Source of the DNA: an uncultured bacterium
Lineage (GTDB): Bacteria > Cyanobacteriota > Vampirovibrionia > Gastranaerophilales > Gastranaerophilaceae
Assembly: GCA_949282195.1 (NCBI GenBank)
Contig: CASDOW010000011.1
Coordinates: 1 to 64,000 of the forward strand
Length of the DNA stretch: 64,000 nt
Direction of reading: 5' to 3'
Below, one piece after another: positions 54,827 through 58,062 of this stretch. Each line of letters opens with the position of its first letter. Positions within the stretch are counted from its first letter, which is position 1. The translations under genes were made by a program, and so were the position numbers. The notes under the pieces are model-generated. The model ran no database searches and was not told where the DNA came from. It saw only the letters and a program-made list of their open reading frames with translations.

Positions 54827-56017
54827 GGATTTTTCTTTTTCCTTTTTTGCGCCAAGAGTAACAATTCCCCTGCCGTATTTTTCTTCCAATTTATCCCAAG
54901 ACTTTGACAACTCTTGTTTTTTTAAATTGTCATCTCCATCAAAAAGAGAAATTTGCTGAGTTTTAGCAGCCGTCAATTTCATAGCGCAAAAACCGACAGA
55001 ACGATATATTATTCCTTTTTGATAAAGCTTATCTAAAATCTCTTTTGAATGATTGATAAGCTCAAACTCTGTATTGGTTGGAGAAATCAAATTAATTTTC
55101 ATATCAAAAACCTGAAAATCTTTTGTCCTTAACATTACTAAAATACACCCTGTTACCAGATTTTCATTTCTCAATTTTTTACAAACCTTATGAATATGAT
55201 TATTAAGTTGTTCTTGAATATAATTTTTATCTGTTTGAAATTCCTTAAAACTCTCACTCCTCGAAACTGATTTAGGAGCAGACGAAACCCCTTGAACAGG
55301 ATTTATGATGTTTCCCAAAAGCTCTTGTTTTAAATCAAGCCCGATTTTACCCAAATTCTTTTTAATCCAAACATCTTCTTGACTAACAAAATCCCATGCA
55401 CTTTGAATTAAATGTTTTTTTAAAAGAGCAGTCGTATTTTTCCCTACCCCCCAAACTTCAGAAATCAAGGTTGATTTCAATTCTTCTTGAATTTGTCTGT
55501 ATCCGATTTTATAAGTTTTTTTATCTATTTTTATTTTTTGAAGAGCCTTTGCTTTATCATTTGCAAGTTTAGCTAACACCTTAGAATAAGAAAGCCCGAC
55601 AGAAACATCAATTCCGATTTCGTTTTTAATGTCTTTAACAATTTTTTCAACCAATTCTTCATAAGAGCAATTAAAAGTTTTTCTTAATCCTGTTAAATCT
55701 AAAAATGCTTCATCTATAGAATAAATCTCAACATCAGGAGTAAAATCATAGAGTTTATCCATAACTCTTTTAGATATTTCACAATAAAAAGGTAAATTTC
55801 CCGATAAAAAAATAACTTTTTTAAACTGATTTTTAACAATAAAATATGGCGCACCCATTTCAACGCCCATTCTTTTTGCTTCATTAGACCTTGAAACAAC
55901 ACAACCGTCATTATTTGATAAAACACAAACAGGCTTATCGATAAGCTCAGGTTTTAAAAGCCTTTCGCAAGAAACAAAAAAATTATTACAATCAACAAGT
56001 GCTATAACTCTTTTCAT
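54818..56017 (-). CDS. umuC: Y-family DNA polymerase (UmuC-like)
   Basis: 399-aa translesion polymerase. Catalytic residues are seen in IALVDCNNFFVSCER (Asp9) and YSIDEAFLDLTG near 100 (Asp and Glu). VSVGLSYSKVLAKLAND and the little-finger domain at 240-350 fit UmuC rather than DinB. The Lys-rich tail is extra. It is translated with the LexA/UmuD-like gene (4-bp overlap) and is probably induced by DNA damage. Confidence 0.93.
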   Translation of the reverse strand: MKRVIALVDCNNFFVSCERLLKPELIDKPVCVLSNNDGCVVSRSNEAKRMGVEMGAPYFIVKNQFKKVIFLSGNLPFYCEISKRVMDKLYDFTPDVEIYSIDEAFLDLTGLRKTFNCSYEELVEKIVKDIKNEIGIDVSVGLSYSKVLAKLANDKAKALQKIKIDKKTYKIGYRQIQEELKSTLISEVWGVGKNTTALLKKHLIQSAWDFVSQEDVWIKKNLGKIGLDLKQELLGNIINPVQGVSSAPKSVSRSESFKEFQTDKNYIQEQLNNHIHKVCKKLRNENLVTGCILVMLRTKDFQVFDMKINLISPTNTEFELINHSKEILDKLYQKGIIYRSVGFCAMKLTAAKTQQISLFDGDDNLKKQELSKSWDKLEEKYGRGIVTLGAKKEKEKSKK

Positions 56018-56598
56018 TTTATTTTCCTTGTTATTCCAAGCGCAACTCCAAAAATAACCAGACTTTCTTTTGGTCTGATAATAGGATAAGAAGAATTTTC
56101 CGGTTTTAAATAATAGCCCTTATCATCTTTTTTATATGTTTTTAAAGTAAATTCATTATCAACAACAGCTAAAACTATGTCATCAATCATAGCTTCAGAA
56201 GTTTTTTTGATTATTACATAATCACCGTCTAAAATCCCTACCTCGCACATTGAATCTCCTGAAACCCTAAAAACAAAGGTAGAAGGCGAATTAATATTTA
56301 AAATTTCATCAAGAGAAATTCTTTTTTCGATTTTATCCTCTAAAACAGCTGCAAAACCCGCTTTAACAGAAGTTGTAGCAAGATAAGCACCAAACTGATT
56401 TTTATTTATATAAAGCTTATTATCAATCTCTTCAATCAGATTTTCCTCTTTTAAAATTTCAATATACTGTTTAATTGAATTTTTAGATTTATATCCAAGC
56501 TCATTTTTTAATTTTTCATAGCTGGATAAAGCTCTTTGCTGATACCCTTCTTTCAGTTTTTCAAAAAAATCTTTTTGTTTTTGTGTTAATTTTTTCAT
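56014..56598 (-). CDS. lexA: LexA-like SOS repressor/UmuD-type S24 peptidase
   Basis: 194 aa. Residues 1-65 form a winged helix DNA-binding domain of LexA type (KQYIEILKEENLIEEIDNKLYI). The autocleavage site is Ala80-Gly81. The catalytic dyad is Ser116 (SGDSMCEVGI) and Lys153 (EFTLKTYK). Because it has a DNA-binding domain and is fused in an operon with umuC, it may serve as both local repressor and UmuD partner. A palindrome (GTAC-N4-GTAC) lies 8-27 bp upstream of the ATG. Whether it is the main chromosomal LexA is not known. Confidence 0.88.
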   Translation of the reverse strand: MKKLTQKQKDFFEKLKEGYQQRALSSYEKLKNELGYKSKNSIKQYIEILKEENLIEEIDNKLYINKNQFGAYLATTSVKAGFAAVLEDKIEKRISLDEILNINSPSTFVFRVSGDSMCEVGILDGDYVIIKKTSEAMIDDIVLAVVDNEFTLKTYKKDDKGYYLKPENSSYPIIRPKESLVIFGVALGITRKIK

Positions 56599-56605
56599 GA
56601 TTTTA

Positions 56606-56625
56606 TTATGTACGAATGTACATAA
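56606..56625. promoter_or_regulatory. SOS box of the lexA-umuC operon
   Basis: TTATGTAC-GAAT-GTACATAA, a perfect 8-bp inverted repeat around a 4-nt centre. The GTAC-N4-GTAC core is what has been described for cyanobacterial LexA and differs from E. coli (CTG-N10-CAG) and the GAAC-N4-GTTC type of Gram-positives. It is directly upstream of lexA, so autoregulation is the natural reading. Confidence 0.75.
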
Positions 56626-56672: not shown

Positions 56673-56788
56673 ATAAAAAAAACGGCTAATTTGTGAACAA
56701 ATTAAGCCGTGATGGATAGAATTAGTATTACGGAGTTTATAGAGGAGTTTACATGCTATTTAATGACCCTGAAAAAAATAATTTGCTA
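56673..56788 (-). ncRNA. Candidate small RNA with two anti-Shine-Dalgarno motifs
   Basis: On the minus strand there is a candidate promoter (TTGTAA, 18 bp, TAAAAT at about 56815-56786; also TTGACA at 56808-56803). It is followed by an AU-rich body containing AAACUCCUC and AAACUCCGU at about 56723-56748, and a canonical terminator (arms ACGGCUUAAUUUGU/ACAAAUUAGCCGU, then seven U). The unit lies between the terminator of the aminotransferase gene and lexA. A single-stranded CUCCU ahead of a terminator hairpin is a known design for mRNA-silencing sRNAs; the cyanobacterial Yfr1 has ACUCCUCACAC. Exact ends are estimated. Confidence 0.42.
56682..56710 (-). terminator. Strong minus-strand terminator with no annotated gene upstream
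   Basis: Stem of 13 bp with one bulge (ACGGCTAATTTGT on the plus strand pairing with ACAAATT-A-AGCCGT). On the minus strand seven T follow. No protein gene on the minus strand lies between it and the previous terminator at 56837, which is the main reason to suspect an RNA gene. Confidence 0.75.
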
Positions 56789-56827
56789 ATATTTTATTTA
56801 TTTGTCAATTTTATTTACAAAAGTTAA
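56753..56827 (+). CDS. Possible 24-residue hydrophobic peptide ORF (doubtful)
   Basis: ATG 56753 to TAA 56827; the first residues are MLFNDPEKNN and the rest is hydrophobic (LLIFYLFVNFIYK). GAGGAG lies 6 nt upstream. A small hydrophobic peptide divergent to lexA would recall SOS-induced toxins such as TisB, but the same bases are better explained as the complement of the candidate small RNA. I consider it the weaker reading. Confidence 0.22.
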   Translation: MLFNDPEKNNLLIFYLFVNFIYKS

Positions 56828-56880: not shown

Positions 56881-58062
56881 TTATATTTCTTTTAAGGCTT
56901 CAGCCAATCTCTTAATTCCTTCTTCGATTGTTTCACTGTCTGCATTTGTATAATTCAACCGCAAAGTATTAACATTGTGTTCATTAACATAAAAAGGATC
57001 GCCCGGAACAAAAGCAACATTCTTTTTAATTGCTTTATTAAATAAATCAACCGAAGATTTGCCTTCTTCTAAAGTAACCCAGCTAAACATTCCGCCTTTT
57101 GGAACAGTGTATTTAATGTTTTTTGGAAAATATTTTTCCATAGCACCAACCATAGCTTCAGCTTGGCTTTTATATAGTTTTTTAATTTTTTCAATATGTT
57201 TATCAAGGTCATTGTTATATAAATAATCAGAGATTAAATATTGACCAAAAATATTAGAATGTAAATCAGAAGCTTGCTTTGCCGTTTCAAGCATATTAAT
57301 TATCTCTTTATTTGCAATAATATAACCAAGACGCATGCCCGGAGTTACAATTTTTGAAAAAGAACCAAGATAAATATTCTTTTGTGTTTGATTTAGCCCG
57401 ATATAAGGAATTCTCTCGCCGTCTTCAAACCTTAATTCGCCATAAGGGTCATCTTGAATTAAAATCATATCTTCATCTTTAATCGTTTCGAAAACTTCTT
57501 TTCTGTTTTGCGCGCTATATGTCAGACCTGTCGGATTTTGAAAATTAGGAATCAAATAAGCTAATTTTGGCTTATGAGTTTTTAGGGTTTTTTTCAATTC
57601 ATCAATATCTAAGCCGTCATCGTTTAATTTTGTTTGGACAAAATCCGCACTATACAAACAAAAAGCTTGCAATAAACCAAGATAAGACGGTTTTTCAACC
57701 ATTACTTTATCATTTTCATTTATGAATACTTTTCCGATTAAATCAAGAGCTTGCTGAGAACCTGTTGTAATAATAACGTTATCAATACTTATTTCCATAT
57801 TCCAGATTTTTTTATATCTGTCTACAATATATTGACGCAAACTGTCCAGACCTAAAGTAGTTGAATATTGATAAATCTTTGCCCCAAATCTTTCAGCTAT
57901 TCTGTTCATAGAAATTTTAAGTTCTTCCTGAGGAAAAGATATAGGATTGGGTAAACCGCCTGCAAAGGAAATAATTTCAGGCTTTTGAGTTACTTTTAAA
58001 ATTTCTCTTATAAAAGAAGAAGGTGTGTTTTTAATTCTTTTTGAAAAAAATTCTTCAAACAT
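56881..58062 (-). CDS. PLP-dependent class I/II aminotransferase (2-aminoadipate/aromatic type)
   Basis: 393-aa fold-type I aminotransferase. SFAGGLPNPISFP at the start, TTGSQQALDLIGKVF near 95, PNFQNPTGLTYS near 180, DDPYGELRF near 210, and the cofactor Lys in SFSKIVTPGMRLGYI near 240 are typical of the LysN/MocR-like aminotransferase group, which acts on 2-aminoadipate, Leu or aromatic amino acids. The substrate is not settled by sequence. AGGAGAG lies 5 nt before the ATG on the minus strand. Confidence 0.9.
   Translation of the reverse strand: MFEEFFSKRIKNTPSSFIREILKVTQKPEIISFAGGLPNPISFPQEELKISMNRIAERFGAKIYQYSTTLGLDSLRQYIVDRYKKIWNMEISIDNVIITTGSQQALDLIGKVFINENDKVMVEKPSYLGLLQAFCLYSADFVQTKLNDDGLDIDELKKTLKTHKPKLAYLIPNFQNPTGLTYSAQNRKEVFETIKDEDMILIQDDPYGELRFEDGERIPYIGLNQTQKNIYLGSFSKIVTPGMRLGYIIANKEIINMLETAKQASDLHSNIFGQYLISDYLYNNDLDKHIEKIKKLYKSQAEAMVGAMEKYFPKNIKYTVPKGGMFSWVTLEEGKSSVDLFNKAIKKNVAFVPGDPFYVNEHNVNTLRLNYTNADSETIEEGIKRLAEALKEI

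Follow-up and report, generated by a model that had tools for sequence, protein, structure and literature searches.

A small RNA gene with a conserved 36-nt single strand in Candidatus Gastranaerophilales and its predicted flagellar target sites

The tetranucleotide CUCC is a classical complement of the ribosome-binding site, and sRNAs of Firmicutes and other bacteria such as RsaE/RoxS and LhrC carry C-rich anti-Shine-Dalgarno loops. In enterobacteria, the sRNAs McaS, OmrA/B and ArcZ affect motility through the mRNA of the master regulator flhDC. Cyanobacteria possess the short sRNAs Yfr1 (RF01116) and Yfr10, which have been proposed to pair with mRNAs (PMC2190773, PMC6778093). The defining features of Yfr1 are an unpaired and ultraconserved ACUCCUCACAC and the two stem-loops that flank it (PMC2190773). 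Our searches of the literature retrieved no account of a regulatory sRNA from Gastranaerophilales, the uncultured, non-photosynthetic gut sister group of photosynthetic cyanobacteria. Here, we analyzed an sRNA gene of this order located in a 64,000-nt stretch of DNA (hereafter, the window).

Gene structure and comparison with known sRNAs

The sRNA and its surroundings comprise the following features:

56752-56675, minus strand: sRNA gene of 78 nt, transcript GUAAACUCC...GCCGUUUUUUUU, with a putative 5' end
56714-56749, minus strand: ultraconserved single-stranded block of 36 nt, AACUCCUCUAUAAACUCCGUAAUACUAAUUCUAUCC
56742-56749, minus strand: first anti-Shine-Dalgarno motif, AACUCCUC
56732-56737, minus strand: second anti-Shine-Dalgarno motif, AACUCC, 12 nt from the first
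56714-56723, minus strand: second invariant block, AAUUCUAUCC, the exact complement of GGAUAGAAUU, which is found at the ribosome-binding sites of flgB and fliJ
56710-56675, minus strand: intrinsic terminator (hairpin stem 56710-56682, U-run 56681-56675), whose stem varies with compensatory changes
56763-56758, minus strand: conserved -10-like box TTAAAT
56788-56783, minus strand: conserved TAGCAA box, an atypical -35 or an activator site
56804-56827, minus strand: upstream repeats TTAAC / TTTGTAAA / TTGAC, found in most loci, a possible regulator site
56014-56598, minus strand: lexA, a downstream neighbour by local arrangement, outside the sRNA unit

Like Yfr1 and Yfr10, this sRNA is short, presents an ultraconserved exposed strand with ACUCCUC, ends with an intrinsic terminator, is conserved at the scale of an order or phylum and is proposed to pair with mRNAs. 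However, its conserved strand spans 36 nt relative to 11 nt in Yfr1, it contains two copies of AACUCC as well as the second block AAUUCUAUCC, and it is found in other hosts. Repeated motifs complementary to ribosome-binding sites and a putative block of translation are also features of RsaE/RoxS and LhrC, but the sequences are unrelated (no Rfam match) and the seed is a free 5' strand here, whereas it lies in hairpin loops in those sRNAs. Finally, motility is predicted to be under post-transcriptional sRNA control as it is with McaS, OmrA/B and ArcZ, although these act on the mRNA of the master regulator and the sites predicted here are located on structural genes (flgB, fliJ, fliF and others).

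The initial annotation of this DNA proposed a Yfr1-like or novel sRNA, and the second of these terms is the one that holds. The exposure of ACUCCUC before the terminator and the assignment of the hosts to the same phylum are both compatible with a diverged homologue of cyanobacterial Yfr1, a hypothesis that we nevertheless consider very improbable. Indeed, the covariance model RF01116, at its gathering score, did not match the genomes G000, G032, G040 and G041, whereas it matched the positive controls (the cyanobacterium G390 and Synechococcus elongatus), and a permissive scan of the locus yielded no match at an E-value of 5 or better. Searches of Rfam at gathering and permissive thresholds returned nothing relevant. 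The motif ACUCCUCACAC is absent from the sRNA, which presents ACUCCUCUAUAAACUCC instead, and the two flanking stem-loops of Yfr1 are absent as well, since the predicted fold contains the terminator stem alone and no 5' hairpin. The resemblance to Yfr1 is thus that of the exposed ACUCCUC and falls short of membership in its family. By its sequence, the sRNA represents a new family of an already known kind.

The conservation of the locus makes it near certain that it constitutes a free-standing sRNA gene, organized as a conserved promoter, an unstructured body of 42 nt, a terminator hairpin and a U-run. As initially annotated, the minus strand presents a strong hairpin followed by seven U and no protein gene: the nearest proteins are encoded by lexA and by an aminotransferase gene (56881-58062), which possesses a separate terminator at 56866-56832. 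The terminator is the sole predicted fold of the 78-nt transcript (−12.4 kcal/mol; z = −5.2 relative to shuffled sequences, of which 0/200 were equally stable), and the first 42 nt remain single-stranded. The stretch of 136 nt originally delimited reached a z-score of just −1.54, because it includes the promoter. Hairpin and U-run were found in all 56 non-identical relatives (median −11.9), relative to five at a control position. The promoter boxes are conserved and their spacing is nearly constant across loci. They had initially been placed 100-130 bp upstream, but the -10 box is in fact nearer (56763-56758). We placed the 5' end of the transcript near G56752, because this position lies about 6 nt past the -10 box and conservation starts there. 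In the window (56783-56827) and in all relatives, the -35 element is atypical (TAGCAA/CGCAA/TAACAA), and upstream repeats of the TTAAC/TGTAAA/TTGAC type spaced by about 10-11 bp resemble a site for a response regulator of the OmpR/PhoB type.

Conservation and distribution of the sRNA

We searched 58 relatives at the nucleotide level and found the sRNA in nearly all species of the window's genus and in other families. Their alignment delimits a sharply bounded unit surrounded by flanking DNA that cannot be aligned. The 35-mer core AACTCCTCTATAAACTCCGTAATACTAATTCTATC was found without mismatch in about 60 of the 286 sampled genomes of the order, from two families (f1 and f7), with three mismatches in two more; the backwards pattern was never found. 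The sRNA is present in one copy per genome, except in bins with overlapping or duplicated contigs, and many genera of the window's family present no detectable copy. We scanned 84,980 species genomes (GTDB) and obtained 98 stretches, nearly all of them titled Gastranaerophilales or unnamed MAGs, from which the window's genome would belong to Candidatus Gastranaerophilales. One MAG titled uncultured Clostridia bacterium (L141; CAMEWS010000011.1) carries the sRNA, and this title is likely mislabelled because the adjacent gene is common to Gastranaerophilales loci. A mobile or viral origin of the sRNA was rejected, as the pattern was found in none of the viral contigs searched. We also discarded the weak covariance matches obtained in genera without the core (L094-L100 and L102; E-values of 0.02 to 1), which appeared on inspection to be due to chance; the cyanobacterial match (L102) is unlike the sRNA and is not the Yfr1 of that genome. 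No partner RNA of the type of Yfr2 was detected: no stretch complementary to the sRNA over more than 13 nt was found elsewhere, and the reversed control gave the same result. Metagenome contigs often end inside the sRNA with overlaps of about 77 nt (G013 C83/C50, G015 C118/C80, G019 C12, G009 C53/C111, G178 C47/C48 and G232 C18/C52). These ends probably represent assembly breaks at an identical k-mer common to co-occurring species, the sRNA behaving as an inter-species repeat in metagenome assemblies.

The alignment of 39 sequences contains two invariant blocks, AACUCCUCUAUAAACUCCGUA and AAUUCUAUCC, with no more variation in the CUCC half than in the AAUUCUAUCC block. In more distant families, variation is confined to the linker between the blocks (GTAATACTAATTC, GTAATTTAAATTC and GTAACGCAAATTC), and the linker is shortened in the genus g36. 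The terminator stem differs among genera and four of its five consensus pairs were altered on both sides. From these alignments, selection on the 36-nt core is extreme, whereas the stem drifts through compensatory substitutions. The two CUCC motifs originally described are located within AAACUCCUC (56750-56742) and AAACUCCGU (56738-56730) of the minus strand. Their exposure was supported, both being unpaired in the predicted fold, but they make up just part of the conserved unit, which is the 36-nt block.

The same bases had also been read as a 24-aa ORF behind GAGGAG on the plus strand. This ORF is present in the window and in near relatives, yet its start codon is kept in just 37 of 90 loci and its length ranges from 5 to 24 aa, and we rejected a short coding gene on these counts. 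Moreover, conservation is the same at all codon positions and stops at the ends of the RNA. Compensatory changes were observed in the stem and codon-level conservation was not, which is the outcome expected from an RNA, and we attribute next to no probability to the coding alternative.

The search for a conserved unit in related genomes, which had been suggested initially, recovered it mostly away from lexA and in unrelated contexts. Across 96 distinct loci, the neighbours form many groups that differ between genera: a MenA-like prenyltransferase, a SpoIID-like protein with MurJ, RmuC, electron-transfer flavoproteins, lexA-umuC and others (gene names were judged by eye from the sequences). The genes lexA-umuC adjoin the sRNA in 13 of these loci, downstream on the same strand in five and divergently upstream in eight, and this adjacency is limited to some species of one genus. 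The palindrome TGTAC-N4-GTACA occurs once in the window, at 56609, in the promoter of lexA itself; this sequence (TGTACGAATGTACA, 56609-56622), just upstream of the gene, is a candidate LexA operator for autoregulation. We found no LexA box at the sRNA promoter and no conserved linkage to lexA. Because the lexA neighbourhood is local, there is no ground for a role in the SOS response, and the link to stress drawn from lexA-umuC is not sustained.

Predicted flagellar target sites

We searched for targets in 1.63 Mb (78%) of the window's genome, which includes 1615 gene starts. Complementarity of at least 9 nt to the second block and linker was found at 19 of these starts, and six of the 19 belong to the 20 flagellar genes (P = 4 × 10−8). 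None of 1000 shuffled sequences reached six and the reversed sequence gave zero; the CUCC half presented no flagellar enrichment among the same 1615 starts. The matches extend over 13 nt for fliF, 13 nt for fliJ, 11 nt for flgB and 9 nt for each of flgC, flgG and the lytic transglycosylase gene. The 20 flagellar genes form three clusters and their families were confirmed by Pfam, except for flgB, which was assigned from its position and appearance.

The flagellar link was first noticed post hoc and was then tested in congeneric genomes outside the original search by comparing motif coordinates with those of flgB and fliJ. The exact complement of AAUUCUAUCC, GGATAGAATT, precedes the gene start by 0-12 nt at flgB in 16 of 21 congeneric genomes and at fliJ in 12 of 20, relative to a chance expectation of about 5 × 10−5 per gene. 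These cases come from related species and are not independent, yet most of them share just 61 to 77% identity in flgB. At fliJ, the motif is kept while its spacing ranges between 2 and 5 nt. The fliF leader GAATTAGTA, complementary to the linker and block, is kept in most congeners. In G016, the sole congener without a detected copy of the sRNA, the flgB site is missing and the fliJ motif is displaced to 19 nt before the start. We also observed that GGATAGAATT is far more common than its reversed control, but codon use may explain this excess and we gave it no weight. An 89-aa LuxR-type HTH protein (L279, 8877-9146, minus strand) presents GGATAGAATTATG at its start; this candidate regulator target has the strongest predicted duplex among the candidates compared (−23.6 kcal/mol).

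Within the genus, the conserved seed thus matches, in complement, the conserved start regions of the flgB and fliJ mRNAs, but no such relation was found between families. The sites are absent from flgB and flgC of the genera g36 and g37 and were not seen in fliF of g6, though these carry the same sRNA. Ranking 386 orthologue pairs between two families revealed no common targets above shuffled sRNAs. The presence of flagellar FliF and that of the sRNA do not match cleanly in either direction, and this comparison is phylogenetically confounded. Species without flagellar-type FliF (G010, G027 and the genera g3, g41 and g45) carry an unchanged sRNA, and flagella therefore cannot be its sole or original task. 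Because of the sites unseen in g36, g37 and g6, the carriers without FliF and the lack of cross-family targets, support for the predicted flagellar regulon is strongest in one genus, and the sRNA would have at least one older set of targets. Some match to YscJ/FliF was found in 283 of 286 genomes of the order, including genera without flagellar-type FliF. A second FliF-like gene with FliG-like and FlhA-like neighbours (G000 C6, 27936-33436) is present in almost every genome of the order, and this cluster may be an export apparatus of flagellar origin that persists in the absence of flagella.

Proposed mechanism and its alternatives

We consider it likely that this is a trans-acting sRNA that blocks ribosome-binding sites by base-pairing, and that its regulon in the window's genus is flagellar. 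The free-standing gene, with its conserved promoter and Rho-independent terminator, would yield such a transcript, and the 36-nt core would pair with ribosome-binding sites and block the initiation of translation. In the window's genus, AAUUCUAUCC would pair with GGAUAGAAUU, which overlaps the Shine-Dalgarno sequence and touches or nearly touches the start codon of flgB and fliJ. In the window's species, the same block may also pair at flgC, flgG and the basal-body lytic transglycosylase gene through 9-nt matches. The adjoining UACUAAUUC may pair with GAAUUAGUA in the leader of fliF. As a result, flagellar rod, MS-ring and export proteins would be repressed when the promoter is switched on; we infer both this direction and the conditions of the effect. 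The CUCC motifs presumably act on other mRNAs or add to the strength of the pairing.

It is possible, although unlikely, that the main targets are other mRNAs recognized by the tandem CUCC. The complementarity to flagellar genes would then be secondary, or the motif would have been maintained for a different purpose, for example as a ribosome-binding site specific to flagellar genes. The unchanged sRNA of carriers without flagella, the lack of conservation of the flagellar sites in g36 and g37 and the equal invariance of the CUCC half are all in line with this possibility. However, no targets of the CUCC half exceeded the controls, and it is otherwise hard to explain why an invariant 10-nt block is the exact complement of a conserved 10-nt motif of flgB and fliJ. 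This complementarity to the start regions of functionally related genes, together with the match of CUCC to the ribosome-binding site, also argues against the 36-nt strand being the site of an RNA-binding protein that the RNA would titrate without any mRNA pairing. A single strand this long and almost without variation, with its repeated half sites (two identical AACUCC 12 nt apart), could reflect protein binding, but we regard this alternative as improbable. Pairing with mRNAs is likely, and a flagellar role in the window's genus is the best-supported mechanism among those considered from the sequences.

These results suggest that the sRNA probably tunes the production of flagella. A broader scenario, to which we give an even chance, involves two pairing modules: an older tandem anti-Shine-Dalgarno module and AAUUCUAUCC, which would have been recruited in one genus for a flagellar regulon over many structural genes at once, the sRNA itself staying constant while the ribosome-binding sites of its targets adapted to it. 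Even among sRNAs, it is unusual for a single strand of 36 nt to remain the same across families, and the predicted flagellar sites constitute a direct and cheap functional test in a lineage without genetics. This sRNA may thereby offer a case for the evolution of targets around a fixed sRNA.
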